Shown: one piece after another, positions 1 to 64,000 of the stretch
Layout: each line of letters starts with the position of its first letter
Numbering within the stretch: the stretch's first letter is position 1
DNA from: Loxodes magnus
Lineage: Eukaryota > Ciliophora > Karyorelictea > Loxodida > Loxodidae
NCBI GenBank assembly: GCA_946699065.1
Contig: CAMPDV010001467.1
Coordinates: forward strand, 45,190 to 109,189
DNA length: 64,000 bases
Direction of reading: 5' to 3'
Notes under the pieces: generated by a model
Seen by the model: only the letters and a program-made list of their open reading frames with translations
Database searches by the model: none
What the model was told of the DNA's origin: nothing
Program-made: the position numbers and the translations under genes

Positions 1-123
1 TGTGACCACTCATGGTCTTACAGGTACCTGTCTTGACGTCCCATAGTCTCACCGTCTAATCATAACTTCCCGATACGATGAACTCTGAATTACTGGATAT
101 AGCCACAGATCATACCTAATAAG
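1..123 (-). repeat. First complete unit, used as the exemplar
   Basis: On the minus strand the codon for G1 is at 5-7 and H2 at 2-4. In this unit the residue-25 codon is TAG (56-58, in the context GSYD-stop-TV) and the residue-5 codon is TAG (116-118). The residue-7 codon is TGA (110-112). Conserved blocks, from high to low coordinate, are [31 protein letters not shown]. Plus-strand frames are closed: TGA or TAG occurs within the first 50 bases in each, so only the minus strand makes sense as protein. The unit is 43% G+C. Confidence 0.9.
20..31. repeat. 12-bp perfect palindrome present once per unit
   Basis: ACAGGTACCTGT is its own reverse complement and contains a KpnI-type GGTACC core. It codes for residues 34-37 (TGTC) of the blade on the minus strand. 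It recurs every 123 bp in nearly every unit. Exceptions seen are a synonymous TGT to TGC change that breaks only the outer pair (near 11823, 19939, 50455, 51183 and 62135) and one core change at 31506. A function in recombination or protein binding is not shown; codon constraint alone may explain it. Confidence 0.85.
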
Positions 124-1230
124 TGTGACCACTCATGGTCTTACAGGTACCTGTCTTGACGTCCCATAGTCTCACCGTATTATCTCTACTTCCCGATACG
201 ATGAACTCTGAATTACTGGATATAGCCACAGATCATACCTAATTTATGTGACCACTCATGGTCTTACAGGTACCTGTCTTGACGTCCCATAGTCTCACCG
301 TCTAATCATAACTTCCCGATACGATGAACTCTGAATTACTGGATATAGCCACAGATCATACCTAATAAGTGTGACCACTCATGGTCTTACAGGTACCTGT
401 CTTGACGTCCCATAGTCTCACCGTCTAATCATAACTTCCCGATACGATGAACTCTGAATTACTGGATATAGCCACAGCATATACCTAATTAGTGTGACCA
501 CTCATGGTCTTACAGGTACCTGTCTTGACGTCCCATAGTCTCACCGTATTATCTCTACTTCCCGATACGATGAACTCTGAATCACTGGATATAGCCAAAG
601 ATCATACAGAACTAGTGTGACCACAGATGGTCTTACAGGTACCTGTCTTGACGTCCCATAGTCTCACCGTCTAATCATAACTTCCCGATACGATGAACTC
701 TGAATTACTGGATATAGCCACAGATCATACCTAATTAGTGTGACCACTCATGGTCTTACAGGTACCTGTCTTGACGTCCCATAGTCTCACCGTCTAATCA
801 TAACTTCCCGATACGATGAACTCTGAATTACTGGATATAGCCACAGATCATACCTAATTAGTGTGACCACTCATGGTCTTACAGGTACCTGTCTTGACGT
901 CCCATAGTCTCACCGTCTAATCTACACTTCCCGATACGATGAACTCTGAATTACTGGATATAGCCACAGCATATACCTAATTAGTGTGACCACTCATGGT
1001 CTTACAGGTACCTGTCTTGACGTTCCATAGTCTCACCGTCGAATCATAACTTCCCGATACGATGAACTCTGAATTACTGGATATAGCCACAGATCATACC
1101 TAATTAGTGTGACCACTCATGGTCTTACAGGTACCTGTCTTGACGTCCCATAGTCTCACCGTCTAATCATAACTTCCCGATACGATGAACTCTGAATTAC
1201 TGGATATAGCCACAGATCATACCTAATTAG
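124..1230. repeat. Copy A of a 20-unit-offset duplication (9 units)
   Basis: The order of unit variants here, including the unique Ile3 form (tttatgtgacc at about 243) and the acagatgg unit at 616, repeats at 2583-3812. The offset is 2459 bp at the left and 2582 bp further right, so one extra unit was inserted in the second copy. Confidence 0.65.
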
Positions 1231-2452
1231 TGTGACCACTCATGGTCTTACAGGTACCTGTCTTGACGTCCCATAGTCTCACCGTCTAATCTACACTTCC
1301 CGATACGATGAACTCTGAATTACTGGATATAGCCACAGATCATACATAATTAGTGTGACCACTCATGGTCTTACAGGTACCTGTCTTGACGTCCCATAGT
1401 CTCACCGTCTAATCTACACTTCCCGATACGATGAACTCTGAATTACTGGATATAGCCACAGATCATACCTAATAAGTGTGACCACTCATGGTCTTACAGG
1501 TACCTGTCTTGACGTCCCATAGTCTCACCGTCTAATCTACACTTCCCGATACGATGAACTCTGAATTACTGGATATAGCCACAGATCATACCTAATTAGT
1601 GTGACCACTCATGGTCTTACAGGTACCTGTCTTGACGTCCCATAGTCTCACCGTATTATCTCTACTTCCCGATACGATGAACTCTGAATTACTGGATATA
1701 GCCACAGATCATACCTAATTAGTGTGACCACTCATGGTCTTACAGGTACCTGTCTTGACGTCCCATAGTCTCACCGTCTAATCATAACTTCCCGATACGA
1801 TGAACTCTGAATTACTGGATATAGCCACAGCATATACCTAATTTGTGTGACCACTCATGGTCTTACAGGTACCTGTCTTGACGTCCCATAGTCTCACCGT
1901 ATTATCTCTACTTCCCGATACGATGAACTCTGAATTAATGGATATAGCCACAGATCATACCTAATTTGTGTGACCACTCATGGTCTTACAGGTACCTGTC
2001 TTGACGTCCCATAGTCTCACCGTCGAATCTACACTTCCCGATACGATGAACTCTGAATTACTGGATATAGCCACAGATCATACCTAATAAGTGTGACCAC
2101 TCATGGTCTTACAGGTACCTGTCTTGACGTCCCATAGTCTCACCGTATTATCTCTACTTCCCGATACGATGAACTCTGAATTACTGGATATAGCCACAGC
2201 ATATACCTAATTAGTGTGACCACTCATGGTCTTACAGGTACCTGTCTTGACGTCCCATAGTCTCACCGTCTAATCATAACTTCCCGATACGATGAACTCT
2301 GAATTACTGGATATAGCCACAGCATATACCTAATTAGTGTGACCACTCATGGTCTTACAGGTACCTGTCTTGACGTCCCATAGTCTCACCGTATTATCTC
2401 TACTTCCCGATACGATGAACTCTGAATTACTGGATATAGCCACAGCATATAC

Positions 2453-4742
2453 TAATTTGTGTGACCACTCATGGTCTTACAGGTACCTGTCTTGACGTCC
2501 CATAGTCTCACCGTCTAATCATAACTTCCCGATACGATGAACTCTGAATTACTGGATATAGCCACAGCATATACCTAATTAGTGTGACCACTCATGGTCT
2601 TACAGGTACCTGTCTTGACGTCCCATAGTCTCACCGTATTATCTCTACTTCCCGATACGATGAACTCTGAATTACTGGATATAGCCACAGATCATACCTA
2701 ATTTATGTGACCACTCATGGTCTTACAGGTACCTGTCTTGACGTCCCATAGTCTCACCGTCTAATCATAACTTCCCGATACGATGAACTCTGAATTACTG
2801 GATATAGCCACAGATCATACCTAATAAGTGTGACCACTCATGGTCTTACAGGTACCTGTCTTGACGTCCCATAGTCTCACCGTCTAATCATAACTTCCCG
2901 ATACGATGAACTCTGAATTACTGGATATAGCCACAGCATATACCTAATTAGTGTGACCACTCATGGTCTTACAGGTACCTGTCTTGACGTCCCATAGTCT
3001 CACCGTATTATCTCTACTTCCCGATACGATGAACTCTGAATTACTGGATATAGCCACAGCATATACCTAATTAGTGTGACCACTCATGGTCTTACAGGTA
3101 CCTGTCTTGACGTCCCATAGTCTCACCGTCTAATCTACACTTCCCGATACGATGAACTCTGAATCACTGGATATAGCCAAAGATCATACAGAACTAGTGT
3201 GACCACAGATGGTCTTACAGGTACCTGTCTTGACGTCCCATAGTCTCACCGTCTAATCATAACTTCCCGATACGATGAACTCTGAATTACTGGATATAGC
3301 CACAGATCATACCTAATTAGTGTGACCACTCATGGTCTTACAGGTACCTGTCTTGACGTCCCATAGTCTCACCGTCTAATCATAACTTCCCGATACGATG
3401 AACTCTGAATTACTGGATATAGCCACAGATCATACCTAATTAGTGTGACCACTCATGGTCTTACAGGTACCTGTCTTGACGTCCCATAGTCTCACCGTCT
3501 AATCTACACTTCCCGATACGATGAACTCTGAATTACTGGATATAGCCACAGCATATACCTAATTAGTGTGACCACTCATGGTCTTACAGGTACCTGTCTT
3601 GACGTTCCATAGTCTCACCGTCGAATCATAACTTCCCGATACGATGAACTCTGAATTACTGGATATAGCCACAGATCATACCTAATTAGTGTGACCACTC
3701 ATGGTCTTACAGGTACCTGTCTTGACGTCCCATAGTCTCACCGTCTAATCATAACTTCCCGATACGATGAACTCTGAATTACTGGATATAGCCACAGATC
3801 ATACCTAATAAGTGTGACCACTCATGGTCTTACAGGTACCTGTCTTGACGTTCCATAGTCTCACCGTCTAATCTACACTTCCCGATACGATGAACTCTGA
3901 ATTACTGGATATAGCCACAGATCATACCTAATAAGTGTGACCACTCATGGTCTTACAGGTACCTGTCTTGACGTCCCATAGTCTCACCGTATTATCTCTA
4001 CTTCCCGATACGATGAACTCTGAATTACTGGATATAGCCACAGATCATACCTAATTAGTGTGACCACTCATGGTCTTACAGGTACCTGTCTTGACGTCCC
4101 ATAGTCTCACCGTATTATCTCTACTTCCCGATACGATGAACTCTGAATTACTGGATATAGCCACAGATCATACATAATAAGTGTGACCACTCATGGTCTT
4201 ACAGGTACCTGTCTTGACGTCCCATAGTCTCACCGTCTAATCTACACTTCCCGATACGATGAACTCTGAATTACTGGATATAGCCACAGCATATACCTAA
4301 TTAGTGTGACCACTCATGGTCTTACAGGTACCTGTCTTGACGTCCCATAGTCTCACCGTATTATCTCTACTTCCCGATACGATGAACTCTGAATTACTGG
4401 ATATAGCCACAGCATATACCTAATTAGTGTGACCACTCATGGTCTTACAGGTACCTGTCTTGACGTCCCATAGTCTCACCGTCTAATCATAACTTCCCGA
4501 TACGATGAACTCTGAATTACTGGATATAGCCACAGCATATACCTAATTAGTGTGACCACTCATGGTCTTACAGGTACCTGTCTTGACGTCCCATAGTCTC
4601 ACCGTCTAATCATAACTTCCCGATACGATGAACTCTGAATTACTGGATATAGCCACAGATCATACCTAATTAGTGTGACCACTCATGGTCTTACAGGTAC
4701 CTGTCTTGACGTTCCATAGTCTCACCGTCTAATCATAACTTC
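2453..4742 (-). pseudogene. WD40 frame block 2, about 19 units
   Basis: Bounded by the 1-bp deletion at 2452 and by another at about 4742, where ccc became cc within the codons for S20-G21. The first ten units largely repeat those of block 1 (see the 20-unit duplication). Confidence 0.55.
2583..3812. repeat. Copy B of the 124-1230 segment (10 units)
   Basis: Matches copy A unit by unit, with one added Arg23/Asn25 unit near 2950-3080 and one unit changed from Arg/Asn to Val/TAG. Confidence 0.65.
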
Positions 4743-7700
4743 CGATACGATGAACTCTGAATTACTGGATATAGCCACAGCATATACCTAATTAGTGTGA
4801 CCACTCATGATTTTACAGGTACCTGTCTTGACGTCCCATAGTCTCACCGTCGAATCTACACTTCCCGATACGATGAACTCTGAATTACTGGATATAGCCA
4901 CAGCATATACCTAATTAGTGTGACCACTCATGGTCTTACAGGTACCTGTCTTGACGTCCCATAGTCTCACCGTATTATCTCTACTTCCCGATACGATGAA
5001 CTCTGAATTACTGGATATAGCCACAGCATATACCTAATTAGTGTGACCACTCATGGTCTTACAGGTACCTGTCTTGACGTCCCATAGTCTCACCGTATTA
5101 TCTCTACTTCCCGATACGATGAACTCTGAATTACTGGATATAGCCACAGCATATACCTAATTAGTGTGACCACTCATGGTCTTACAGGTACCTGTCTTGA
5201 CGTCCCATAGTCTCACCGTATTATCTCTACTTCCCGATACGATGAACTCTGAATTACTGGATATAGCCACAGATCATACCTAATTTGTGTGACCACTCAT
5301 GGTCTTACAGGTACCTGTCTTGACGTCCCATAGTCTCACCGTCTAATCATAACTTCCCGATACGATGAACTCTGAATTACTGGATATAGCCAAAGATCAT
5401 ACAGAACTAGTGTGACCACTCATGGTCTTACAGGTACCTGTCTTGACGTCCCATAGTCTCACCGTATTATCTCTACTTCCCGATACGATGAACTCTGAAT
5501 TACTGGATATAGCCACAGATCATACCTAATTTGTGTGACCACTCATGGTCTTACAGGTACCTGTCTTGACGTCCCATAGTCTCACCGTCTAATCATAACT
5601 TCCCGATACGATGAACTCTGAATTACTGGATATAGCCACAGATCATACCTAATTAGTGTGACCACTCATGGTCTTACAGGTACCTGTCTTGACGTCCCAT
5701 AGTCTCACCGTCTAATCATAACTTCCCGATACGATGAACTCTGAATTACTGGATATAGCCACAGATCATACCTAATTAGTGTGACCACTCATGGTCTTAC
5801 AGGTACCTGTCTTGACGTTCATTAGTCTCACCGTCTAATCATAACTTCCCGATACGATGAACTCTGAATTACTGGATATAGCCACAGATCATACCTAATT
5901 AGTGTGACCACTCATGGTCTTACAGGTACCTGTCTTGACGTCCCATAGTCTCACCGTCTAATCATAACTTCCCGATACGATGAACTCTGAATTACTGGAT
6001 ATAGCCACAGCATATACCTAATTAGTGTGACCACTCATGGTCTTACAGGTACCTGTCTTGACGTCCCATAGTCTCACCGTATTATCTCTACTTCCCGATA
6101 CGATGAACTCTGAATTACTGGATATAGCCACAGCATATACCTAATTAGTGTGACCACTCATGGTCTTACAGGTACCTGTCTTGACGTCCCATAGTCTCAC
6201 CGTCTAATCATAACTTCCCGATACGATGAACTCTGAATTACTGGATATAGCCACAGCATATACCTAATTAGTGTGACCACTCATGGTCTTACAGGTACCT
6301 GTCTTGACGTCCCATAGTCTCACCGTCTAATCATAACTTCCCGATACGATGAACTCTGAATTACTGGATATAGCCACAGATCATACATAATAAGTGTGAC
6401 CACTCATGGTCTTACAGGTACCTGTCTTGACGTCCCATAGTCTCACCGTCTAATCTACACTTCCCGATACGATGAACTCTGAATTACTGGATATAGCCAC
6501 AGATCATACCTAATTTGTGTGACCACTCATGGTCTTACAGGTACCTGTCTTGACGTCCCATAGTCTCACCGTCTAATCTACACTTCCCGATACGATGAAC
6601 TCTGAATTACTGGATATAGCCACAGCATATACCTAATTAGTGTGACCACTCATGGTCTTACAGGTACCTGTCTTGACGTCCCATAGTCTCACCGTCTAAT
6701 CATAACTTCCCGATACGATGAACTCTGAATTACTGGATATAGCCACAGCATATACCTAATTAGTGTGACCACTCATGGTCTTACAGGTACCTGTCTTGAC
6801 GTCCCATAGTCTCACCGTCTAATCATAACTTCCCGATACGATGAACTCTGAATTACTGGATATAGCCACAGATCATACCTAATTAGTGTGACCACTCATG
6901 GTCTTACAGGTACCTGTCTTGACGTCCCATAGTCTCACCGTCTAATCTACACTTCCCGATACGATGAACTCTGAATTACTGGATATAGCCACAGCACATA
7001 CATAACTAGTGTGACCACTCATGGTCTTACAGGTACCTGTCTTGACGTTCCATAGTCTCACCGTCTAATCTACACTTCCCGATACGATGAACTCTGAATT
7101 ACTGGATATAGCCACAGAACATACATAATTTGTGTGACCACTCATGGTCTTACAGGTACCTGTCTTGACGTCCCATAGTCTCACCGTCTAATCATAACTT
7201 CCCGATACGATGAACTCTGAATTACTGGATATAGCCACAGATCATACCTAATTAGTGTGACCACTCATGGTCTTACAGGTACCTGTCTTGACGTCCCATA
7301 GTCTCACCGTCTAATCTACACTTCCCGATACGATGAACTCTGAATTACTGGATATAGCCACAGCACATACATAACTAGTGTGACCACTCATGGTCTTACA
7401 GGTACCTGTCTTGACGTTCCATAGTCTCACCGTCTAATCTACACTTCCCGATACGATGAACTCTGAATTACTGGATATAGCCACAGAACATACATAATTT
7501 GTGTGACCACTCATGGTCTTACAGGTACCTGTCTTGACGTCCCATAGTCTCACCGTCTAATCTACACTTCCCGATACGATGAACTCTGAATTACTGGATA
7601 TAGCCACAGATCATACCTAATTTGTGTGACCACTCATGGTCTTACAGGTACCTGTCTTGACGTCCCATAGTCTCACCGTCTAATCATAACTTCCCGATAC

Positions 7701-7862
7701 GATGAACTCTGAATTACTGGATATAGCCACAGATCATACATAATTAGTGTGACCACTCATGGTCTTACAGGTACCTGTCTTGACGTCCCATAGTCTCACC
7801 GTATTATCTCTACTTCCCGATACGATGAACTCTGAATTACTGGATATAGCCACAGCATATAC
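4743..7862 (-). pseudogene. WD40 frame block 3, about 25 units
   Basis: The frame is maintained from 4743 to the linker deletion at 7862. It contains one W30M/D31N blade (about 5817-5824) and a local 3-unit duplication at 6.9-7.6 kb. Most units keep TAG at residue 25. Confidence 0.55.
6889..7626. repeat. 3-unit duplication (2 x 369 bp)
   Basis: The distinctive linker cacatacataactag appears at 6995 and 7364, 369 bp apart, each followed by a gttcc unit and an aacatacataat linker. Confidence 0.65.
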
Positions 7863-8353
7863 TAATTTGTGTGACCACTCATGGTCTTACAGGTACCTGT
7901 CTTGACGTCCCATAGTCTCACCGTCGAATCATAACTTCCCGATACGATGAACTCTGAATTACTGGATATAGCCACAGATCATACCTAATTTGTGTGACCA
8001 CTCATGGTCTTACAGGTACCTGTCTTGACGTCCCATAGTCTCACCGTCGAATCTACACTTCCCGATACGATGAACTCTGAATTACTGGATATAGCCACAG
8101 AACATACATAATTAGTGTGACCACTCATGGTCTTACAGGTACCTGTCTTGACGTCCCATAGTCTCACCGTATTATCTCTACTTCCCGATACGATGAACTC
8201 TGAATTACTGGATATAGCCAAAGATCATACAGAACTAGTGTGACCACAGATGGTCTTACAGGTACCTGTCTTGACGTCCCATAGTCTCACCGTCTAATCT
8301 ACACTTCCCGATACGATGAACTCTGAATTACTGGATATAGCCACAGCATATAC
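7863..8353 (-). pseudogene. WD40 frame block 4, 4 units
   Basis: A short block between two copies of the same linker deletion (7862 and 8353), 491 bp apart, i.e. four units less one base. It includes a two-blade stretch free of stops (7985-8221). Confidence 0.5.
7985..8221 (-). pseudogene. Stop-free two-blade WD40 segment
   Basis: 78 codons between TGA (residue 7) upstream and TAG (residue 5) at 7985-7987. Blade forms are Arg23/Asn25 then Val23/Ser25, with Tyr5 and Cys7 (TGT) between them. The first possible start is TTG, not ATG, so it is a gap between stops rather than a convincing gene. Confidence 0.45.
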
Positions 8354-8721
8354 TAATTTGTGTGACCACTCATGGTCTTACAGGTACCTGTCTTGACGTC
8401 CCATAGTCTCACCGTCGAATCATAACTTCCCGATACGATGAACTCTGAATTACTGGATATAGCCACAGATCATACCTAATTTGTGTGACCACTCATGGTC
8501 TTACAGGTACCTGTCTTGACGTCCCATAGTCTCACCGTCTAATCATAACTTCCCGATACGATGAACTCTGAATTACTGGATATAGCCACAGATCATACAT
8601 AATTAGTGTGACCACTCATGGTCTTACAGGTACCTGTCTTGACGTCCCATAGTCTCACCGTATTATCTCTACTTCCCGATACGATGAACTCTGAATTACT
8701 GGATATAGCCACAGCATATAC
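8354..8721 (-). pseudogene. WD40 frame block 5, 3 units
   Basis: 368 bp (three units less one base) between linker deletions at 8353 and 8721. The same pair of deletions reappears 8116 bp downstream at 16469 and 16837, marking the large duplication. Confidence 0.5.
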
Positions 8722-8843
8722 TAATTTGTGTGACCACTCATGGTCTTACAGGTACCTGTCTTGACGTCCCATAGTCTCACCGTCGAATCATAACTTCCCG
8801 ATACGATGAACTCTGAATTACTGGATATAGCCACAGATCATAC

Positions 8844-9080
8844 CTAATTTGTGTGACCACTCATGGTCTTACAGGTACCTGTCTTGACGTCCCATAGTCT
8901 CACCGTCGAATCTACACTTCCCGATACGATGAACTCTGAATTACTGGATATAGCCACAGAACATACATAATTAGTGTGACCACTCATGGTCTTACAGGTA
9001 CCTGTCTTGACGTCCCATAGTCTCACCGTATTATCTCTACTTCCCGATACGATGAACTCTGAATTACTGGATATAGCCAA
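8844..9080 (-). pseudogene. Stop-free two-blade segment, copy of 7985-8221
   Basis: Same 78-residue peptide as the segment 859 bp to its left (seven units less two bases), so it is a local duplicate. Confidence 0.45.
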
Positions 9081-9704
9081 AGATCATACAGAACTAGTGT
9101 GACCACAGATGGTCTTACAGGTACCTGTCTTGACGTCCCATAGTCTCACCGTCTAATCTACACTTCCCGATACGATGAACTCTGAATTACTGGATATAGC
9201 CACAGCATATACCTAATTAGTGTGACCACTCATGGTCTTACAGGTACCTGTCTTGACGTTCCATAGTCTCACCGTCTAATCATAACTTCCCGATACGATG
9301 AACTCTGAATTACTGGATATAGCCACAGATCATACCTAATTTGTGTGACCACTCATGGTCTTACAGGTACCTGTCTTGACGTCCCATAGTCTCACCGTCT
9401 AATCATAACTTCCCGATACGATGAACTCTGAATTACTGGATATAGCCACAGATCATACATAATTAGTGTGACCACTCATGGTCTTACAGGTACCTGTCTT
9501 GACGTCCCATAGTCTCACCGTATTATCTCTACTTCCCGATACGATGAACTCTGAATTACTGGATATAGCCACAGATCATACCTAATAAGTGTGACCACTC
9601 ATGGTCTTACAGGTACCTGTCTTGACGTCCCATAGTCTCACCGTCTAATCATAACTTCCCGATACGATGAACTCTGAATTACTGGATATAGCCACAGATC
9701 ATAC

Positions 9705-9887
9705 CTAATAAGTGTGACCACTCATGGTCTTACAGGTACCTGTCTTGACGTCCCATAGTCTCACCGTCGAATCTACACTTCCCGATACGATGAACTCTGA
9801 ATTACTGGATATAGCCACAGAACATACATAATTAGTGTGACCACTCATGGTCTTACAGGTACCTGTCTTGACGTCCCATAGTCTCAC
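9705..9887 (-). pseudogene. Stop-free WD40 segment, about 1.5 blades
   Basis: 60 codons from just after a TAG at residue 25 to TAG at residue 5. Ends GHTY because residue 4 is Tyr here. The middle linker has Tyr5-Val-Cys7. Confidence 0.4.
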
Positions 9888-10319
9888 CGTCTAATCTACA
9901 CTTCCCGATACGATGAACTCTGAATTACTGGATATAGCCACAGCATATACCTAATTAGTGTGACCACTCATGGTCTTACAGGTACCTGTCTTGACGTTCC
10001 ATAGTCTCACCGTCGAATCATAACTTCCCGATACGATGAACTCTGAATTACTGGATATAGCCACAGATCATACCTAATTTGTGTGACCACTCATAATCTT
10101 ACAGGTACCTGTCTTGACGTTCATTAGTCTCACCGTCTAATCATAACTTCCCGATACGATGAACTCTGAATTACTGGATATAGCCACAGAACATACATAA
10201 TTAGTGTGACCACTCATGGTCTTACAGGTACCTGTCTTGACGTCCCATAGTCTCACCGTATTATCTCTACTTCCCGATACGATGAACTCTGAATTACTGG
10301 ATATAGCCACAGATCATAC

Positions 10320-10556
10320 CTAATAAGTGTGACCACTCATGGTCTTACAGGTACCTGTCTTGACGTCCCATAGTCTCACCGTCGAATCTACACTTCCCGA
10401 TACGATGAACTCTGAATTACTGGATATAGCCACAGAACATACATAATTAGTGTGACCACTCATGGTCTTACAGGTACCTGTCTTGACGTCCCATAGTCTC
10501 ACCGTATTATCTCTACTTCCCGATACGATGAACTCTGAATTACTGGATATAGCCAA
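10320..10556 (-). pseudogene. Stop-free two-blade WD40 segment
   Basis: Same blade pair as 7985-8221 but ending GHTY; a variant with Tyr at residue 4 next to the TAG. Confidence 0.45.
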
Positions 10557-12839
10557 AGATCATACAGAACTAGTGTGACCACAGATGGTCTTACAGGTAC
10601 CTGTCTTGACGTCCCATAGTCTCACCGTCTAATCTACACTTCCCGATACGATGAACTCTGAATTACTGGATATAGCCACAGCATATACCTAATTAGTGTG
10701 ACCACTCATGGTCTTACAGGTACCTGTCTTGACGTTCCATAGTCTCACCGTCTAATCATAACTTCCCGATACGATGAACTCTAAATCACTGGATATAGCC
10801 ACAGCATATACCTAATTAGTGTGACCACTCATGGTCTTACAGGTACCTGTCTTGACGTTCCATAGTCTCACCGTCTAATCATAACTTCCCGATACGATGA
10901 ACTCTGAATTACTGGATATAGCCACAGATCATACCTAATTTGTGTGACCACTCATAATCTTACAGGTACCTGTCTTGACGTTCATTAGTCTCACCGTCTA
11001 ATCTACACTTCCCGATACGATGAACTCTGAATTACTGGATATAGCCACAGAACATACATAATTTGTGTGACCACTCATGGTCTTACAGGTACCTGTCTTG
11101 ACGTCCCATAGTCTCACCGTATTATCTCTACTTCCCGATACGATGAACTCTGAATCACTGGATATAGCCAAAGATCATACAGAACTAGTGTGACCACAGA
11201 TGGTCTTACAGGTACCTGTCTTGACGTCCCATAGTCTCACCGTCTAATCTACACTTCCCGATACGATGAACTCTGAATTACTGGATATAGCCACAGCATA
11301 TACCTAATTAGTGTGACCACTCATGGTCTTACAGGTACCTGTCTTGACGTCCCATAGTCTCACCGTCTAATCTACACTTCCCGATACGATGAACTCTGAA
11401 TTACTGGATATAGCCACAGATCATACCTAATTAGTGTGACCACTCATGGTCTTACAGGTACCTGTCTTGACGTCCCATAGTCTCACCGTCTAATCATAAC
11501 TTCCCGATACGATGAACTCTGAATTACTGGATATAGCCACAGCATATACCTAATTAGTGTGACCACTCATGATTTTACAGGTACCTGTCTTGACGTCCCA
11601 TAGTCTCACCGTCGAATCTACACTTCCCGATACGATGAACTCTGAATTACTGGATATAGCCACAGATCATACATAATTAGTGTGACCACTCATGGTCTTA
11701 CAGGTACCTGTCTTGACGTCCCATAGTCTCACCGTATTATCTCTACTTCCCGATACGATGAACTCTGAATTACTGGATATAGCCACAGATCATACCTAAT
11801 AAGTGTGACCACTCATGGTCTTGCAGGTACCTGTCTTGACGTCCCATAGTCTCACCGTCTAATCATAACTTCCCGATACGATGAACTCTGAATTAATGGA
11901 TATAGCCACAGATCATACCTAATTTGTGTGACCACTCATGGTCTTACAGGTACCTGTCTTGACGTCCCATAGTCTCACCGTCTAATCATAACTTCCCGAT
12001 ACGATGAACTCTGAATTACTGGATATAGCCACAGATCATACCTAATAAGTGTGACCACTCATGGTCTTACAGGTACCTGTCTTGACGTCCCATAGTCTCA
12101 CCGTCGAATCTACACTTCCCGATACGATGAACTCTGAATTACTGGATATAGCCACAGCATATACCTAATTAGTGTGACCACTCATGGTCTTACAGGTACC
12201 TGTCTTGACGTCCCATAGTCTCACCGTCTAATCTACACTTCCCGATACGATGAACTCTGAATTACTGGATATAGCCACAGATCATACCTAATTAGTGTGA
12301 CCACTCATGGTCTTACAGGTACCTGTCTTGACGTCCCATAGTCTCACCGTATTATCTCTACTTCCCGATACGATGAACTCTGAATTACTGGATATAGCCA
12401 CAGATCATACCTAATTAGTGTGACCACTCATGGTCTTACAGGTACCTGTCTTGACGTCCCATAGTCTCACCGTATTATCTCTACTTCCCGATACGATGAA
12501 CTCTGAATTACTGGATATAGCCACAGCATATACCTAATTAGTGTGACCACTCATGGTCTTACAGGTACCTGTCTTGACGTCCCATAGTCTCACCGTCGAA
12601 TCATAACTTCCCGATACGATGAACTCTGAATTACTGGATATAGCCACAGATCATACCTAATTTGTGTGACCACTCATGGTCTTACAGGTACCTGTCTTGA
12701 CGTCCCATAGTCTCACCGTCTAATCATAACTTCCCGATACGATGAACTCTGAATTACTGGATATAGCCACAGATCATACCTAATTTGTGTGACCACTCAT
12801 GGTCTTACAGGTACCTGTCTTGACGTCCCATAGTCTCAC

Positions 12840-49917: not shown

Positions 49918-49920
49918 TTA
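49918..49920 (-). other. In-frame TAA at residue 7
   Basis: The unit has agattatac where relatives have agatcatac, turning TGA into TAA. This is the first TAA in the correct frame that I found in the window, reading from the left. Confidence 0.8.
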
Positions 49921-51770: not shown

Positions 51771-51953
51771 CTAATTAGTGTGACCACTCATGGTCTTACA
51801 GGTACCTGTCTTGACGTCCCATAGTCTCACCGTATAATCATAACTTCCCGATACGATGAACTCTGAATTACTGGATATAGCCACAGAACATACATAATTT
51901 GTGTGACCACTCATGGTCTTACAGGTACCTGTCTTGACGTCCCATAGTCTCAC
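51771..51953 (-). pseudogene. Stop-free WD40 segment with Tyr23/Tyr25 blade
   Basis: 60 codons from a TAG at residue 25 to TAG at residue 5, with Tyr5-Val-Cys7 between. Confidence 0.4.
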
Positions 51954-52340
51954 CGTCTAATCTACACTTCCCGATACGATGAACTCTGAATTACTGGATA
52001 TAGCCACAGATCATACCTAATTAGTGTGACCACTCATGGTCTTACAGGTACCTGTCTTGACGTCCCATAGTCTCACCGTATTATCTCTACTTCCCGATAC
52101 GATGAACTCTGAATTACTGGATATAGCCACAGATCATACCTAATAAGTGTGACCACTCATGGTCTTACAGGTACCTGTCTTGACGTCCCATAGTCTCACC
52201 GTCGAATCTACACTTCCCGATACGATGAACTCTGAATTACTGGATATAGCCACAGATCATACCTAATAAGTGTGACCACTCATGGTCTTACAGGTACCTG
52301 TCTTGACGTTCCATAGTCTCACCGTCTAATCATAACTTCC

Positions 52341-53692
52341 GATACGATGAACTCTGAATTACTGGATATAGCCACAGATCATACCTAATAAGTGTGACCA
52401 CTCATGGTCTTACAGGTACCTGTCTTGACGTTCCATAGTCTCACCGTCTAATCATAACTTCCCGATACGATGAACTCTGAATTACTGGATATAGCCACAG
52501 ATCATACCTAATATGTGTGACCACTCATGGTCTTACAGGTACCTGTCTTGACGTTCCATAGTCTCACCGTCTAATTTACACTTCCCGATACGATGAACTC
52601 TGAATTACTGGATATAGCCACAGAACATACATAATTTGTGTGACCACTCATGGTCTTACAGGTACCTGTCTTGACGTCCCATAGTCTCACCGTCTAATCT
52701 ACACTTCCCGATACGATGAACTCTGAATTACTGGATATAGCCACAGATCATACCTAATAAGTGTGACCACTCATGGTCTTACAGGTACCTGTCTTGACGT
52801 CCCATAGTCTCACCGTATTATCTCTACTTCCCGATACGATGAACTCTGAATCACTGGATATAGCCACAGATCATACCTAATTAGTGTGACCACTCATGGT
52901 CTTACAGGTACCTGTCTTGACGTCCCATAGTCTCACCGTCTAATCTACACTTCCCGATACGATGAACTCTGAATTACTGGATATAGCCACAGCATATACC
53001 TAATTAGTGTGACCACTCATGGTCTTACAGGTACCTGTCTTGACGTCCCATAGTCTCACCGTCTAATCTACACTTCCCGATACGATGAACTCTGAATTAC
53101 TGGATATAGCCACAGAACATACATAATTTGTGTGACCACTCATGGTCTTACAGGTACCTGTCTTGACGTCCCATAGTCTCACCGTCTAATCTACACTTCC
53201 CGATACGATGAACTCTGAATTACTGGATATAGCCACAGATCATACCTAATTAGTGTGACCACTCATGGTCTTACAGGTACCTGTCTTGACGTCCCATAGT
53301 CTCACCGTATTATCTCTACTTCCCGATACGATGAACTCTGAATTACTGGATATAGCCACAGATCATACCTAATAAGTGTGACCACTCATGGTCTTACAGG
53401 TACCTGTCTTGACGTCCCATAGTCTCACCGTCGAATCTACACTTCCCGATACGATGAACTCTGAATTACTGGATATAGCCACAGAACATACATAATTTGT
53501 GTGACCACTCATGGTCTTACAGGTACCTGTCTTGACGTCCCATAGTCTCACCGTATTATCTCTACTTCCCGATACGATGAACTCTGAATTACTGGATATA
53601 GCCACAGATCATACCTAATAAGTGTGACCACTCATGGTCTTACAGGTACCTGTCTTGACGTTCCATAGTCTCACCGTCTAATCATAACTTCC
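52341..53692 (-). pseudogene. WD40 frame block 10, 11 units
   Basis: 1352 bp (11 units less one base) between two copies of the same S20-G21 deletion. This implies that an 11-unit segment carrying the deletion was duplicated. Confidence 0.5.
53369..53605 (-). pseudogene. Stop-free two-blade WD40 segment
   Basis: Arg23/Asn25 then Val23/Ser25, ending GHTY. Same peptide as 10320-10556 although 43 kb away, but the T3 codon in the inner linker is ACA rather than ACT. Confidence 0.42.
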
Positions 53693-54360
53693 GATACGAT
53701 GAACTCTGAATTACTGGATATAGCCACAGATCATACCTAATTAGTGTGACCACTCATGATTTTACAGGTACCTGTCTTGACGTCCCATAGTCTCACCGTC
53801 TAATCTACACTTCCCGATACGATGAACTCTGAATTACTGGATATAGCCACAGATCATACCTAATTTGTGTGACCACTCATGGTCTTACAGGTACCTGTCT
53901 TGACGTACCATAGTCTCACCGTCTAATCTACACTTCCCGATACGATGAACTCTGAATTACTGGATATAGCCACAGAACATACATAATTTGTGTGACCACT
54001 CATGGTCTTACAGGTACCTGTCTTGACGTCCCATAGTCTCACCGTCTAATCTACACTTCCCGATACGATGAACTCTGAATTACTGGATATAGCCACAGAA
54101 CATACATAATTTGTGTGACCACTCATGGTCTTACAGGTACCTGTCTTGACGTCCCATAGTCTCACCGTCTAATCTACACTTCCCGATACGATGAACTCTG
54201 AATTACTGGATATAGCCAAAGATTATACAGAACTAGTGTGACCACAGATGGTCTTACAGGTACCTGTCTTGACGTTCCATAGTCTCACCGTATAATCATA
54301 ACTTCCCGATACGATGAACTCTGAATTACTGGATATAGCCACAGCATATACCTAATTAGT
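53693..54360 (-). pseudogene. WD40 frame block 11, about 5 units
   Basis: Lies between the deletion at about 53692 and the 2-bp insertion at about 54360. Contains an Asp31 to Tyr blade (near 53905) and a TAA at 54223-54225. Confidence 0.5.
54223..54225 (-). other. In-frame TAA at residue 7
   Basis: Same TGA to TAA change. It lies 138 bp to the left of a 2-bp insertion and travels with a Tyr23/Tyr25 unit. Confidence 0.8.
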
Positions 54361-57300
54361 GTGTGACCACTCATGGTCTTACAGGTACCTGTCTTGACGT
54401 CCCATAGTCTCACCGTCTAATCATAACTTCCCGATACGATGAACTCTGAATTACTGGATATAGCCACAGATCATACCTAATAAGTGTGACCACTCATGGT
54501 CTTACAGGTACCTGTCTTGACGTCCCATAGTCTCACCGTATTATCTCTACTTCCCGATACGATGAACTCTGAATTACTGGATATAGCCACAGATCATACC
54601 TAATAAGTGTGACCACTCATGGTCTTACAGGTACCTGTCTTGACGTTCCATAGTCTCACCGTCTAATTTACACTTCCCGATACGATGAACTCTGAATTAC
54701 TGGATATAGCCACAGAACATACATAATTAGTGTGACCACTCATGGTCTTACAGGTACCTGTCTTGACGTCCCATAGTCTCACCGTATTATCTCTACTTCC
54801 CGATACGATGAACTCTGAATTACTGGATATAGCCACAGATCATACCTAATAAGTGTGACCACTCATGGTCTTACAGGTACCTGTCTTGACGTTCCATAGT
54901 CTCACCGTCTAATTTACACTTCCCGATACGATGAACTCTGAATTACTGGATATAGCCACAGATCATACCTAATAAGTGTGACCACTCATGGTCTTACAGG
55001 TACCTGTCTTGACGTCCCATAGTCTCACCGTATTATCTCTACTTCCCGATACGATGAACTCTGAATTACTGGATATAGCCACAGATCATACCTAATAAGT
55101 GTGACCACTCATGGTCTTACAGGTACCTGTCTTGACGTTCCATAGTCTCACCGTCTAATTTACACTTCCCGATACGATGAACTCTGAATTACTGGATATA
55201 GCCACAGATCATACCTAATAAGTGTGACCACTCATGGTCTTACAGGTACCTGTCTTGACGTCCCATAGTCTCACCGTCTAATTTACACTTCCCGATACGA
55301 TGAACTCTGAATTACTGGATATAGCCACAGAACATACATAATTAGTGTGACCACTCATGGTCTTACAGGTACCTGTCTTGACGTCCCATAGTCTCACCGT
55401 CTAATCTACACTTCCCGATACGATGAACTCTGAATTACTGGATATAGCCACAGCATATACCTAATTAGTGTGACCACTCATGGTCTTACAGGTACCTGTC
55501 TTGACGTCCCATAGTCTCACCGTCTAATCTACACTTCCCGATACGATGAACTCTGAATTACTGGATATAGCCACAGAACATACATAATTTGTGTGACCAC
55601 TCATGGTCTTACAGGTACCTGTCTTGACGTCCCATAGTCTCACCGTCTAATCTACACTTCCCGATACGATGAACTCTGAATTACTGGATATAGCCACAGA
55701 TCATACCTAATTAGTGTGACCACTCATGGTCTTACAGGTACCTGTCTTGACGTCCCATAGTCTCACCGTATTATCTCTACTTCCCGATACGATGAACTCT
55801 GAATTACTGGATATAGCCACAGATCATACCTAATAAGTGTGACCACTCATGGTCTTACAGGTACCTGTCTTGACGTCCCATAGTCTCACCGTCTAATCTA
55901 CACTTCCCGATACGATGAACTCTGAATTACTGGATATAGCCACAGAACATACATAATTTGTGTGACCACTCATGGTCTTACAGGTACCTGTCTTGACGTC
56001 CCATAGTCTCACCGTCTAATCTACACTTCCCGATACGATGAACTCTGAATTACTGGATATAGCCACAGAACATACATAATTTGTGTGACCACTCATGGTC
56101 TTACAGGTACCTGTCTTGACGTCCCATAGTCTCACCGTCTAATCTACACTTCCCGATACGATGAACTCTGAATTACTGGATATAGCCACAGATCATGCCT
56201 AATTAGTGTGACCACTCATGGTCTTACAGGTACCTGTCTTGACGTCCCATAGTCTCACCGTCTAATCTACACTTCCCGATACGATGAACTCTGAATTACT
56301 GGATATAGCCACAGATCATACCTAATAAGTGTGACCACTCATGGTCTTACAGGTACCTGTCTTGACGTCCCATAGTCTCACCGTCGAATCTACACTTCCC
56401 GATACGATGAACTCTGAATTACTGGATATAGCCACAGATCATACCTAATTTGTGTGACCACTCATGGTCTTACAGGTACCTGTCTTGACGTACCATAGTC
56501 TCACCGTCTAATCTACACTTCCCGATACGATGAACTCTGAATTACTGGATATAGCCACAGAACATACATAATTTGTGTGACCACTCATGGTCTTACAGGT
56601 ACCTGTCTTGACGTCCCATAGTCTCACCGTCTAATCTACACTTCCCGATACGATGAACTCTGAATTACTGGATATAGCCAAAGATCATACATAATTTGTG
56701 TGACCACTCATGGTCTTACAGGTACCTGTCTTGACGTCCCATAGTCTCACCGTCTAATCTACACTTCCCGATACGATGAACTCTGAATTACTGGATATAG
56801 CCACAGATCATACCTAATAAGTGTGACCACTCATGGTCTTACAGGTACCTGTCTTGACGTCCCATAGTCTCACCGTATTATCTCTACTTCCCGATACGAT
56901 GAACTCTGAATTACTGGATATAGCCACAGATCATACCTAATAAGTGTGACCACTCATGGTCTTACAGGTACCTGTCTTGACGTTCCATAGTCTCACCGTC
57001 TAATTTACACTTCCCGATACGATGAACTCTGAATTACTGGATATAGCCACAGATCATACCTAATAAGTGTGACCACTCATGGTCTTACAGGTACCTGTCT
57101 TGACGTCCCATAGTCTCACCGTCTAATTTACACTTCCCGATACGATGAACTCTGAATTACTGGATATAGCCACAGAACATACATAATTAGTGTGACCACT
57201 CATGGTCTTACAGGTACCTGTCTTGACGTTCATTAGTCTCACCGTCTAATCTACACTTCCCGATACGATGAACTCTGAATTACTGGATATAGCCACAGAT

Positions 57301-57560
57301 CATACCTAATTAGTGTGACCACTCATGGTCTTACAGGTACCTGTCTTGACGTCCCATAGTCTCACCGTCTAATCTACACTTCCCGATACGATGAACTCTG
57401 AATTACTGGATATAGCCACAGATCATACAGAACTAGTGTGACCACAGATGGTCTTACAGGTACCTGTCTTGACGTTCCATAGTCTCACCGTATAATCATA
57501 ACTTCCCGATACGATGAACTCTGAATTACTGGATATAGCCACAGCATATACCTAATTAGT
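54361..57560 (-). pseudogene. WD40 frame block 12, 26 units
   Basis: 3200 bp between 2-bp insertions. Rich in the Val23-Asn24-TAG25 form (aatttacac on the plus strand), with Asp24 replaced by Asn, and in Asn at residue 31. Confidence 0.55.
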
Positions 57561-58615
57561 GTGTGACCACTCATGGTCTTACAGGTACCTGTCTTGACGT
57601 CCCATAGTCTCACCGTCTAATCATAACTTCCCGATACGATGAACTCTGAATTACTGGATATAGCCACAGATCATACCTAATAAGTGTGACCACTCATGGT
57701 CTTACAGGTACCTGTCTTGACGTCCCATAGTCTCACCGTCTAATTTACACTTCCCGATACGATGAACTCTGAATTACTGGATATAGCCACAGAACATACA
57801 TAATTAGTGTGACCACTCATGGTCTTACAGGTACCTGTCTTGACGTCCCATAGTCTCACCGTCTAATCTACACTTCCCGATACGATGAACTCTGAATTAC
57901 TGGATATAGCCACAGCATATACCTAATTAGTGTGACCACTCATGGTCTTACAGGTACCTGTCTTGACGTCCCATAGTCTCACCGTCTAATCTACACTTCC
58001 CGATACGATGAACTCTGAATTACTGGATATAGCCACAGAACATACATAATTTGTGTGACCACTCATGGTCTTACAGGTACCTGTCTTGACGTCCCATAGT
58101 CTCACCGTCTAATCTACACTTCCCGATACGATGAACTCTGAATTACTGGATATAGCCACAGATCATGCCTAATTAGTGTGACCACTCATGGTCTTACAGG
58201 TACCTGTCTTGACGTCCCATAGTCTCACCGTATTATCTCTACTTCCCGATACGATGAACTCTGAATTACTGGATATAGCCACAGATCATACCTAATAAGT
58301 GTGACCACTCATGGTCTTACAGGTACCTGTCTTGACGTCCCATAGTCTCACCGTCGAATCTACACTTCCCGATACGATGAACTCTGAATTACTGGATATA
58401 GCCACAGAACATACATAATTTGTGTGACCACTCATGGTCTTACAGGTACCTGTCTTGACGTCCCATAGTCTCACCGTATTATCTCTACTTCCCGATACGA
58501 TGAACTCTGAATTACTGGATATAGCCACAGATCATACCTAATAAGTGTGACCACTCATGGTCTTACAGGTACCTGTCTTGACGTTCCATAGTCTCACCGT
58601 CTAATCATAACTTCC
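57561..58615 (-). pseudogene. WD40 frame block 13, about 9 units
   Basis: Bounded by a 2-bp insertion at about 57560 and the S20-G21 deletion at about 58615. Includes a two-blade stop-free stretch (58292-58528). Confidence 0.5.
58292..58528 (-). pseudogene. Stop-free segment, copy of 53369-53605
   Basis: Identical peptide 4923 bp downstream (40 units plus 3 bases of net insertion). Confidence 0.42.
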
Positions 58616-60021
58616 GATACGATGAACTCTGAATTACTGGATATAGCCACAGATCATACCTAATTAGTGTGACCACTCATGATTTTACAGGTACCTGTCT
58701 TGACGTCCCATAGTCTCACCGTCTAATCTACACTTCCCGATACGATGAACTCTGAATTACTGGATATAGCCACAGATCATACCTAATAAGTGTGACCACT
58801 CATGGTCTTACAGGTACCTGTCTTGACGTCCCATAGTCTCACCGTCGAATCTACACTTCCCGATACGATGAACTCTGAATTACTGGATATAGCCACAGAT
58901 CATACCTAATTTGTGTGACCACTCATGGTCTTACAGGTACCTGTCTTGACGTACCATAGTCTCACCGTCTAATCTACACTTCCCGATACGATGAACTCTG
59001 AATTACTGGATATAGCCACAGAACATACATAATTTGTGTGACCACTCATGGTCTTACAGGTACCTGTCTTGACGTCCCATAGTCTCACCGTCTAATCTAC
59101 ACTTCCCGATACGATGAACTCTGAATTACTGGATATAGCCAAAGATCATACATAATTTGTGTGACCACTCATGGTCTTACAGGTACCTGTCTTGACGTCC
59201 CATAGTCTCACCGTCTAATCTACACTTCCCGATACGATGAACTCTGAATTACTGGATATAGCCACAGATCATACCTAATAAGTGTGACCACTCATGGTCT
59301 TACAGGTACCTGTCTTGACGTCCCATAGTCTCACCGTATTATCTCTACTTCCCGATACGATGAACTCTGAATTACTGGATATAGCCACAGATCATACCTA
59401 ATAAGTGTGACCACTCATGGTCTTACAGGTACCTGTCTTGACGTTCCATAGTCTCACCGTCTAATTTACACTTCCCGATACGATGAACTCTGAATTACTG
59501 GATATAGCCACAGATCATACCTAATAAGTGTGACCACTCATGGTCTTACAGGTACCTGTCTTGACGTCCCATAGTCTCACCGTCTAATTTACACTTCCCG
59601 ATACGATGAACTCTGAATTACTGGATATAGCCACAGAACATACATAATTAGTGTGACCACTCATGGTCTTACAGGTACCTGTCTTGACGTTCATTAGTCT
59701 CACCGTCTAATCTACACTTCCCGATACGATGAACTCTGAATTACTGGATATAGCCACAGATCATACCTAATTAGTGTGACCACTCATGGTCTTACAGGTA
59801 CCTGTCTTGACGTCCCATAGTCTCACCGTCTAATCTACACTTCCCGATACGATGAACTCTGAATTACTGGATATAGCCAAAGATTATACAGAACTAGTGT
59901 GACCACAGATGGTCTTACAGGTACCTGTCTTGACGTTCCATAGTCTCACCGTATAATCATAACTTCCCGATACGATGAACTCTGAATTACTGGATATAGC
60001 CACAGCATATACCTAATTAGT
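58616..60021 (-). pseudogene. WD40 frame block 14, about 11 units
   Basis: Repeats most of 56.4-57.6 kb at an offset of 2461 bp, and contains TAA at 59884-59886. Confidence 0.5.
59884..59886 (-). other. In-frame TAA at residue 7
   Basis: Third copy of the TAA haplotype, again 138 bp from a 2-bp insertion. Confidence 0.8.
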
Positions 60022-60335
60022 GTGTGACCACTCATGGTCTTACAGGTACCTGTCTTGACGTCCCATAGTCTCACCGTCTAATCATAACTTCCCGATACGA
60101 TGAACTCTGAATTACTGGATATAGCCACAGATCATACCTAATAAGTGTGACCACTCATGGTCTTACAGGTACCTGTCTTGACGTCCCATAGTCTCACCGT
60201 ATTATCTCTACTTCCCGATACGATGAACTCTGAATTACTGGATATAGCCACAGATCATACCTAATAAGTGTGACCACTCATGGTCTTACAGGTACCTGTC
60301 TTGACGTTCCATAGTCTCACCGTCTAATTTACACT

Positions 60336-60338
60336 TCA
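60336..60338 (-). other. TGA replacing conserved Gly21
   Basis: cttcacgat instead of cttcccgat converts GGA to TGA in the invariant SGS motif. It is the only stop that I found outside residues 5, 7 and 25 in the blade frame. Confidence 0.75.
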
Positions 60339-61730
60339 CGATACGATGAACTCTGAATTACTGGATATAGCCACAGAACATACATAATTTGTGTGACCAC
60401 TCATGGTCTTACAGGTACCTGTCTTGACGTCCCATAGTCTCACCGTATTATCTCTACTTCCCGATACGATGAACTCTGAATTACTGGATATAGCCACAGA
60501 TCATACCTAATAAGTGTGACCACTCATGGTCTTACAGGTACCTGTCTTGACGTTCATTAGTCTCACCGTCTAATCATAACTTCCCGATACGATGAACTCT
60601 GAATTACTGGATATAGCCACAGATCATACCTAATTAGTGTGACCACTCATGGTCTTACAGGTACCTGTCTTGACGTCCCATAGTCTCACCGTCTAATCTA
60701 CACTTCCCGATACGATGAACTCTGAATTACTGGATATAGCCAAAGATCATACATAATTTGTGTGACCACTCATGGTCTTACAGGTACCTGTCTTGACGTT
60801 CATTAGTCTCACCGTCTAATCTACACTTCCCGATACGATGAACTCTGAATTACTGGATATAGCCACAGATCATACCTAATAAGTGTGACCACTCATGGTC
60901 TTACAGGTACCTGTCTTGACGTCCCATAGTCTCACCGTATTATCTCTACTTCCCGATACGATGAACTCTGAATTACTGGATATAGCCACAGATCATACCT
61001 AATAAGTGTGACCACTCATGGTCTTACAGGTACCTGTCTTGACGTTCCATAGTCTCACCGTCTAATCTACACTTCCCGATACGATGAACTCTGAATTACT
61101 GGATATAGCCACAGATCATACCTAATAAGTGTGACCACTCATGGTCTTACAGGTACCTGTCTTGACGTCCCATAGTCTCACCGTATTATCTCTACTTCCC
61201 GATACGATGAACTCTGAATTACTGGATATAGCCACAGATCATACCTAATTAGTGTGACCACTCATGGTCTTACAGGTACCTGTCTTGACGTCCCATAGTC
61301 TCACCGTATTATCTCTACTTCCCGATACGATGAACTCTGAATCACTGGATATAGCCAAAGATCATACAGAACTAGTGTGACCACAGATGGTCTTACAGGT
61401 ACCTGTCTTGACGTCCCATAGTCTCACCGTCTAATCTACACTTCCCGATACGATGAACTCTGAATTACTGGATATAGCCACAGCATATACCTAATTAGTG
61501 TGACCACTCATGGTCTTACAGGTACCTGTCTTGACGTCCCATAGTCTCACCGTATTATCTCTACTTCCCGATACGATGAACTCTGAATTACTGGATATAG
61601 CCACAGATCATACATAATTAGTGTGACCACTCATGGTCTTACAGGTACCTGTCTTGACGTCCCATAGTCTCACCGTCGAATCATAACTTCCCGATACGAT
61701 GAACTCTGAATCACTGGATATAGCCAAAGA

Positions 61731-61733
61731 TTA
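61731..61733 (-). other. In-frame TAA at residue 7
   Basis: Fourth copy, 138 bp from the insertion at 61869. Confidence 0.8.
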
Positions 61734-61868
61734 TACAGAACTAGTGTGACCACAGATGGTCTTACAGGTACCTGTCTTGACGTCCCATAGTCTCACCGTA
61801 TAATCATAACTTCCCGATACGATGAACTCTGAATTACTGGATATAGCCACAGCATATACCTAATTAGT

Positions 61869-64000
61869 GTGTGACCACTCATGGTCTTACAGGTACCTGT
61901 CTTGACGTCCCATAGTCTCACCGTCTAATCATAACTTCCCGATACGATGAACTCTGAATTACTGGATATAGCCACAGATCATACCTAATAAGTGTGACCA
62001 CTCATGGTCTTACAGGTACCTGTCTTGACGTCCCATAGTCTCACCGTCGAATCTACACTTCCCGATACGATGAACTCTGAATTAATGGATATAGCCACAG
62101 ATCATACCTAATTTGTGTGACCACTCATGGTCTTGCAGGTACCTGTCTTGACGTCCCATAGTCTCACCGTCGAATCTACACTTCCCGATACGATGAACTC
62201 TGAATTACTGGATATAGCCACAGATCATACCTAATTTGTGTGACCACTCATGGTCTTACAGGTACCTGTCTTGACGTCCCATAGTCTCACCGTATTATCT
62301 ACACTTCCCGATACGATGAACTCTGAATTACTGGATATAGCCACAGCACATACCTAATTTGTGTGACCACTCATGGTCTTACAGGTACCTGTCTTGACGT
62401 CCCATAGTCTCACCGTATTATCTCTACTTCCCGATACGATGAACTCTGAATTACTGGATATAGCCACAGATCATACCTAATTTGTGTGACCACTCATGGT
62501 CTTACAGGTACCTGTCTTGACGTTCATTAGTCTCACCGTCTAATCATAACTTCCCGATACGATGAACTCTGAATTACTGGATATAGCCACAGATCATACC
62601 TAATTTGTGTGACCACTCATGGTCTTACAGGTACCTGTCTTGACGTACCATAGTCTCACCGTCTAATCTACACTTCCCGATACGATGAACTCTGAATTAC
62701 TGGATATAGCCACAGAACATACATAATTTGTGTGACCACTCATGGTCTTACAGGTACCTGTCTTGACGTCCCATAGTCTCACCGTCTAATCTACACTTCC
62801 CGATACGATGAACTCTGAATTACTGGATATAGCCAAAGATCATACATAATTTGTGTGACCACTCATGGTCTTACAGGTACCTGTCTTGACGTCCCATAGT
62901 CTCACCGTCTAATCTACACTTCCCGATACGATGAACTCTGAATTACTGGATATAGCCACAGATCATACCTAATAAGTGTGACCACTCATGGTCTTACAGG
63001 TACCTGTCTTGACGTCCCATAGTCTCACCGTATTATCTCTACTTCCCGATACGATGAACTCTGAATTACTGGATATAGCCACAGATCATACCTAATAAGT
63101 GTGACCACTCATGGTCTTACAGGTACCTGTCTTGACGTTCCATAGTCTCACCGTCGAATCTACACTTCCCGATACGATGAACTCTGAATCACTGGATATA
63201 GCCAAAGATCATACAGAACTAGTGTGACCACTCATGGTCTTACAGGTACCTGTCTTGACGTTCCATAGTCTCACCGTCTAATTTACACTTCCCGATACGA
63301 TGAACTCTGAATTACTGGATATAGCCACAGAACATACATAATTAGTGTGACCACTCATGGTCTTACAGGTACCTGTCTTGACGTCCCATAGTCTCACCGT
63401 CGAATCTACACTTCCCGATACGATGAACTCTGAATTACTGGATATAGCCACAGCATATACCTAATTAGTGTGACCACTCATGGTCTTACAGGTACCTGTC
63501 TTGACGTCCCATAGTCTCACCGTCTAATCTACACTTCCCGATACGATGAACTCTGAATTACTGGATATAGCCACAGATCATACCTAATTAGTGTGACCAC
63601 TCATGGTCTTACAGGTACCTGTCTTGACGTCCCATAGTCTCACCGTCTAATCTACACTTCCCGATACGATGAACTCTGAATTACTGGATATAGCCACAGA
63701 TCATACCTAATAAGTGTGACCACTCATGGTCTTACAGGTACCTGTCTTGACGTTCCATAGTCTCACCGTCTAATCATAACTTCCCGATACGATGAACTCT
63801 GAATTACTGGATATAGCCAAAGATCATACATAATTTGTGTGACCACTCATGGTCTTACAGGTACCTGTCTTGACGTCCCATAGTCTCACCGTATTATCTC
63901 TACTTCCCGATACGATGAACTCTGAATCACTGGATATAGCCAAAGATCATACAGAACTAGTGTGACCACAGATGGTCTTACAGGTACCTGTCTTGACGTC
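61869..64000 (-). pseudogene. WD40 frame block 16, about 17 units, open at the window end
   Basis: The frame continues to the right edge; the window stops 40 bp into unit 521. The N-terminal side of any gene (minus strand) therefore lies beyond 64000 and is not visible. Confidence 0.55.

Follow-up and report, generated by a model that had tools for sequence, protein, structure and literature searches.

Triplets resembling stops in a WD40 satellite of Loxodes magnus are probably sense codons at diversified positions of a receptor-like blade

In the fungal NWD/HNWD receptors, such as those of het-d and het-e in Podospora anserina, near-identical WD40 repeats that evolve in concert and are shuffled accompany variable N-terminal domains, with diversification at four codons flanking a conserved Val and a conserved Asp, according to the accessible portions of PMC1805685 and PMC12222747. 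The former, in those portions, reports strong positive selection at Podospora repeat codons 7, 9, 25, and 27, flanking conserved residues 8 and 26, and places these four positions on the top face of the propeller in a homology model. The stretch considered here, a 64,000-nt window from the ciliate Loxodes magnus (C1467:45190-109189, in a genome of 705,730,643 bases and 7,843 contigs), is in its entirety one tandem satellite array with a period of 123 bp, the minus strand of which codes for WD40 blades of 41 residues per unit (520 units at 1..64000, reaching the contig end at 109189). Most of its units contain TAG, TGA, or TAA triplets, and these are very probably sense codons of the ciliate code, located at the diversified positions of a receptor-like WD40 blade that was amplified as a satellite. 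Near-identical repeats, concerted evolution, repeat shuffling, the same four diversified codons, and variable N-terminal domains are common to the fungal and the Loxodes families. Unlike the fungal receptors with their HET/NACHT domains, however, the Loxodes gene blades are accompanied by a pentapeptide stretch and an N terminus of kinase or RING-like type, their unit is also a satellite of ∼379,000 copies, and the code is ambiguous.

Unit spacings in the window are 123 bp (504 cases), 122 bp (10), and 125 bp (5), and with the 15 odd-length units (ten of 122 bp and five of 125 bp) set aside, the 505 in-phase units comprise 108 DNA types. At least one stop triplet is present in 490 of these units and 15 are stop-free, including two neighbors at 50802..51047 (minus strand). 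A preliminary description, made from the letters of the window, had placed the stops almost wholly at codons 5, 7, and 25 with a single exception at Gly21, and this proved exact: 972 of the 973 stop triplets fall in those codons (TAG 345 times at codon 5 and 336 times at codon 25; TGA 287 times and TAA 4 times at codon 7), and the remaining one is a TGA at codon 21 (60336..60338, minus strand). The codon tabulation that it had proposed shows that other variants also cluster rather than spreading evenly, in that codons 5, 7, 23, and 25, which make up 12 of the 123 sites, hold 14 of the window's 46 alternative alleles (p=8e-5). Across 1,702 clean units (the 505 of the window and 1,197 from the rest of contig C1467 and 15 other contigs), per-base entropy averages 0.96 bit in these four codons, compared with 0.09 in the codons 6 and 24 that they flank and 0.09 elsewhere. 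The near-perfect confinement of stops to codons 5, 7, and 25 is local to the window, and 64 of the 1,384 stops in the 1,197 outside units are not in codons 5, 7, 23, or 25; 47 of these 64 are TAA at codon 15 (TCA to TAA). Genome-wide pattern counts give 22,267 units with TAG at codon 5 and 195,815 with TAT, the TAG pattern being stricter at codon 4. Two further differences in the window have the look of multibase changes: TAT GCT versus TGA TCT at codons 7 and 8, which resembles either a 2-base insertion paired with a 2-base deletion or a multibase replacement, and TGG to ATG at codon 30.

When the unit is aligned to the Podospora repeat with Val and Asp as anchors, codons 7, 9, 25, and 27 of the latter correspond to 5, 7, 23, and 25 here, so that the match with fungal positions given in the preliminary description is upheld by PMC1805685. 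Surface exposure of the four Loxodes codons is taken from the homology model in the same portion of that paper and would place them on the top face of the blade. The WD40 assignment itself is clear, as a two-blade composite of window codon alleles scores 82 bits with the Pfam model PF00400 (cut-off 27).

Conserved genes of the same genome indicate how the triplets are read. The best 31 of 68 HSP70 matches each carry 4 to 11 TAG and 11 to 20 TAA codons in frame and no TGA, and among the 96 actin matches, every one listed contains TAG or TAA. The single internal TGA of actin L047 is at a conserved Trp (1/1), and the divergent actin L046 has four internal TGA codons, two of them at conserved Trp columns; TGA also directly follows the expected C-terminal KCF in five of the five actins read. 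Because HSP70 and actin genes hold in-frame TAG and TAA, and TGA stands at conserved Trp columns of actins, TAG and TAA are, by these alignments, read as Gln and TGA as Trp (or as a stop near the mRNA end) in this genome, which agrees with the recoding that the preliminary description had offered as an option. TAA and TAG as sense codons of conserved genes, and TGA as both Trp and terminator, are what the karyorelict nuclear code (table 27; Loxodes and Parduczia) prescribes, with TAR as Gln and TGA as Trp or stop, and the accessible text of PMC11441545 assigns L. magnus to table 27, with UGA as stop or Trp. The code itself is thus nothing new, and the novelty lies in the concentration of such codons at the diversified positions of a satellite unit. 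All three triplets being sense in this genome, an open-frame test is therefore powerless here. The HSP70 genes (C45, C86, and C854) and actin genes (C266 and C711) are present in many near-identical copies, often several per contig.

The distribution of alleles among arrays separates old variation from new. Alleles common to at least three contigs lie in codons 5, 7, 23, and 25 in 23 of 53 cases, compared with 4 of 41 private alleles (one contig, three or fewer copies; 4.0 expected; p=0.0004), and since private alleles are uniform and shared ones concentrated, mutation today shows nothing unusual, and the pattern is an inherited one. All 23 of the shared alleles at the four codons are amino acid changes (chance 0.009). 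The suggestion that the stops are part of a pool of alternative codons, as opposed to decay, is therefore sustained, since the host reads them as sense and shared alleles concentrate at the four codons, as is founder diversity in the sense of old alleles held in common. The supporting argument that the scaffold stays intact while mutating to stops just as easily is weak, because scaffold mutations of any kind are few and the rare one-contig alleles occur in the four codons as often as the uniform expectation just given. Third bases are also informative: the 59 distinct codon alleles at codons 4, 5, 7, 23, and 25 end in T (30), A (21), or G (8) and never in C, and the 30 NNT alleles have 12 NNA and 6 NNG siblings and no NNC sibling, whereas scaffold codons ending in T or C show synonymous exchange in 8 of 16. 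TAG differs from TAT, and TGA from TGT, in the third base in this way, and the best explanation is that TAG and TGA were read as Gln and Trp.

Related genes were reached through short matches on long contigs (L051 on C3; L052 and L054 on C2). L051 begins with a RING-like segment (below cut-off), followed by pentapeptide repeats (above cut-off) and then seven WD40 blades, and L052 is its seven-bladed paralogue, with an N-terminal part that is not readable in one frame; their PF00400 scores are 224.5 and 232.6 bits, respectively. L054 contains the last part of a protein kinase domain (PF07714, 44.6 bits, cut-off 23.1), together with a pentapeptide-like stretch and a propeller in which one blade is shortened, and L053 and L055 look like fragments. 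The NACHT domain found upstream of the blades in HNWD genes has no counterpart at these positions, which are occupied by pentapeptide repeats and the weak RING match in L051 and by the kinase in L054; the 31 NACHT matches in the genome include none within 50 kb of the array or gene loci read. L052 has stop-type codons at the same places as the window: codon 7 is TGA in its second and third blades, and codon 25 is TAG in its fourth. Of the 109 codons outside 5, 7, 23, and 25 that changed between L051 and L052, 45 are synonymous (neutral 0.228, p=1.3e-5), with changes at codon positions 1, 2, and 3 numbering 47, 23, and 74, whereas 15 of 17 changed codons at those four positions are nonsynonymous. 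Among three gene copies, 18 to 25 of 29 to 30 codons at positions 4, 5, 7, 23, and 25 differ in amino acid and 1 to 2 are synonymous. These counts point to purifying selection on the scaffold and, by the differences among the three copies, to amino acid diversification at the four top-face codons.

The central blades are homogenized. Synonymous differences among the three genes affect 6 to 10 of 108 codons in the central scaffold compared with 24 to 56 of 179 at the edges (p=0.05, 1e-5, and 6e-7), indicative of concerted evolution in the middle. When codons 3, 4, 5, 7, 8, 14, 23, and 25 are left out of the comparison, three central blades (L051 aa 647, L052 aa 390, and L052 aa 431) are identical to some satellite unit at every base, whereas four edge blades differ at 30 to 38 bases, and some half-blade haplotypes are common to genes and arrays. 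There are at least 150 gene-type loci, the junction of the pentapeptide stretch with blade 1 being matched in all 150 scored of 89,379 first-look candidates, and many of these loci may be pseudogenes. On C1 to C299, 25 of the 59 junction matches lie no more than 50 kb from the contig start, and every one of the 25 points toward that end, figures that cover contig starts (left-hand ends); this end-proximal arrangement may reflect a subtelomeric order or contigs breaking at satellites.

The arrays themselves behave differently. A further sample of 16 stretches (15 other contigs and C1467:1-20000) with 1,410 anchored units has 88 odd spacings of less than 200 bp, 87 of them frame-shifting and the other (−30) in frame, and 4 of the 16 stretches have none; an alignment-based count of the same stretches gives 90 odd spacings, none a multiple of three. 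Unit matches in the loci are indel-free in 1,356 of 1,565 cases, a count that includes overlapping short loci later dropped. In the neutrality count, the variable codons 3, 4, 5, 7, 8, 23, and 25 were left out and an allele present in several arrays was counted once for each array. The synonymous share is then 35 of 127 for rare and 20 of 88 for common alleles, close to the neutral 0.23 to 0.26, and the rare alleles are spread over codon positions 1, 2, and 3 as 40, 42, and 45. Array variants outside the hypervariable codons thus look neutral, and the array is probably not maintained as a gene, and any maintained reading frame implied by the preliminary description is unsupported, given frame shifts in 15 of the 520 window units and in nearly all odd spacings elsewhere.

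The favored explanation is that the satellite unit derives from the central, mutually homogenized blades of a receptor-like family with a variable N terminus, pentapeptide repeats, and seven WD40 blades. In this family, the four top-face codons would diversify against an otherwise constant blade, and TAG and TGA would have arisen within its genes as ordinary amino acid alleles under the Loxodes code; diversification likely took place in translated genes. The satellite would have copied the allele pool from gene blades and would now change through unequal exchange, block duplication, and neutral mutation, frameshifts included. The proteins may act as recognition receptors.

Several observations weigh against parts of this explanation. 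Lower-scoring HSP70 matches also hold TGA (up to 6), which may be decay, and the other two internal TGA codons of L046 are off the Trp columns. Karyorelict genes seldom use TGA for Trp (0.12% of codons in Parduczia, in the part of PMC4967479 available), and yet TGA is the commonest window allele at codon 7. Among common array alleles, those outside the variable codons fall unequally on the three codon positions (40, 21, and 27), the S (synonymous) fraction of arrays and genes differs modestly only (p=0.03), and the other arrays were picked as best matches to the window, which biases their allele frequencies. Identity of central blades and units is not general, as outside the variable codons the central blade L052 aa 472 differs at 2 bases and L051 aa 606 and aa 688 differ at 8. 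Descent of the genes from the arrays was also considered, and the opposite direction, from genes to satellite, appears the likelier.

Four other readings bear on the same data. That the array is simply a decaying WD40 pseudogene satellite under the standard code, with stops at variable sites by chance, fits the freedom of the arrays from frame constraint; it is hardly credible, however, because host genes use TAG, TAA, and TGA as sense and the same triplets occupy the same codons of genes under purifying selection. At the other extreme, the array could be a giant functional gene in which all three stops are sense and the protein has thousands of blades, for which it can be said that no in-frame stop is left when TAR and TGA are sense and that odd spacings are absent from 33 kb of the window and from the four uninterrupted stretches of the wider sample. 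An expressed gene of this kind should tolerate indels in multiples of three, and only one of the 88 odd spacings is of that length; with 15 window units shifting the frame, a neutral synonymous share, and rare alleles indifferent to codon position, such a gene is very unlikely. Targeted DNA hypermutation in place of selection, either similar to repeat-induced point mutation (RIP) or templated by a reverse transcriptase (RT) as in diversity-generating retroelements, is favored by the sharp bounds of the variation and by an RT ∼3.5 kb past the array end in a flank common to two other array ends. It is nevertheless very unlikely, in that the rare one-contig alleles show no excess at the four codons, where a diversity-generating retroelement would place new mutations, a synonymous third-base C is never seen even though C is present at first and second positions, the RT junction has just 15 exact copies genome-wide, and CA and TG scaffold sites are mostly intact, unlike in RIP (target preference as given in the accessible part of PMC1805685).

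A more serious contender is that the satellite is an active silent reservoir from which gene conversion carries new codons 5, 7, 23, and 25 into receptor genes. The blades identical to array units outside the variable codons, the divergent edge blades, the scarcity of synonymous differences in the central scaffold, and the half-blade haplotypes common to genes and arrays all speak for it; a one-way origin of the satellite from genes also accounts for blade identity, and active supply is a possibility to be held tentatively, short of an even chance. Somewhat doubtful, too, is the broader proposal of a recognition-receptor system in which many Loxodes genes, often located close to contig ends and built from a kinase or RING-like N terminus, pentapeptide repeats, and a seven-bladed propeller, draw exchangeable blades from a shared pool, mostly archived as at least 379,000 silent satellite blades, with exchange renewing the four surface codons, which would make it a ciliate counterpart of the fungal allorecognition repertoires with an archive of chromosome scale. 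The Podospora pseudogenes NWDp1 and NWDp2 offer a partial precedent, their WD40 repeats being nearly stop-free while the rest decays, for which the authors invoke exchange with active loci (PMC1805685, portions available); each of these is a lone pseudogene of few repeats, whereas the Loxodes array is a megabase-scale satellite.

Amplification of a coding fragment head to tail, followed by homogenization, is the usual history of gene-derived tandem satellites, and the same appears to apply here. Unlike such satellites, the Loxodes array keeps a pool of surface-codon alleles and matches some present-day gene blades at every base outside those codons. A 29-mer across the unit boundary has 379,041 exact copies in the genome (control, 0), which at one 123-bp unit per boundary amounts to ∼46.6 Mb, or 6.6% of the assembly, an estimate that repeat assembly may distort. 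Several arrays are at or near contig ends (C4 from 2225743, the end of C278, and the start of C46). On the C-terminal side, all three array ends read (C1467, C6, and C739) terminate at the same base, with flanks 97 to 98% identical, and the C1467 flank (L018 1-6290, equivalent to C1467:1-6290) codes on the same strand for the RT noted above (RVT_1, E 1.5e-31). The end on C739, with a one-base difference, falls outside the 15 exact array/RT-flank junctions, and as there are no more than these 15, the RT element was rejected as a general satellite carrier and marks one subtype.

Within the window, the frame-shifting units form two clusters (all coordinates on the minus strand). Eight lie at 50062..61876, five of 125 bp with AC added after GGTCACAC and three of 122 bp lacking a G in CGGG, and seven, all of 122 bp, lie at 2345..16851, six lacking a G in TTAGG and one lacking a G in CGGG; the 33-kb stretch between them (16852..50061) has none. 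Seven consecutive units at 43051..43911 have stops at the hypervariable codons except where Asn, Ser, or Tyr alleles occur. Runs of as many as 14 consecutive identical units recur at a 66-unit offset, with shorter runs recurring at offsets of 73, 28, and 14 units, which suggests that segments of the array have been duplicated. A stop-free gene segment within the window was rejected, as standard-code frames reach no more than 102 aa, and a prokaryotic or viral origin was likewise rejected, viral contigs having no relative, plasmid relatives being below 60% identity, and nine genome-contig relatives being at 44 to 51%. A 1-kb piece of the window searched against phages, and the window searched against Rfam, gave no match.

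The accessible text of PMC11441545 describes the L. magnus macronuclear (MAC) assembly as 706 Mbp with 231 Mbp of low-complexity tandem repeats, and the satellite, at ∼6.6% of the assembly, is part of that reported fraction. A search of the accessible literature found no publication combining Loxodes and WD40, and the main text of PMC11441545, as accessible, does not contain the term "WD40." The apparently broken repeats are accounted for by the host code, and diversified codons, including those that resemble stops, can be carried in satellite DNA. The findings suggest that a ciliate has a hypervariable family of WD40 genes, with diversification at the same four positions as in the fungal incompatibility receptors, apparently as a parallel solution. 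If exchange between satellite and genes does occur, satellite DNA would be directly involved in receptor diversification.

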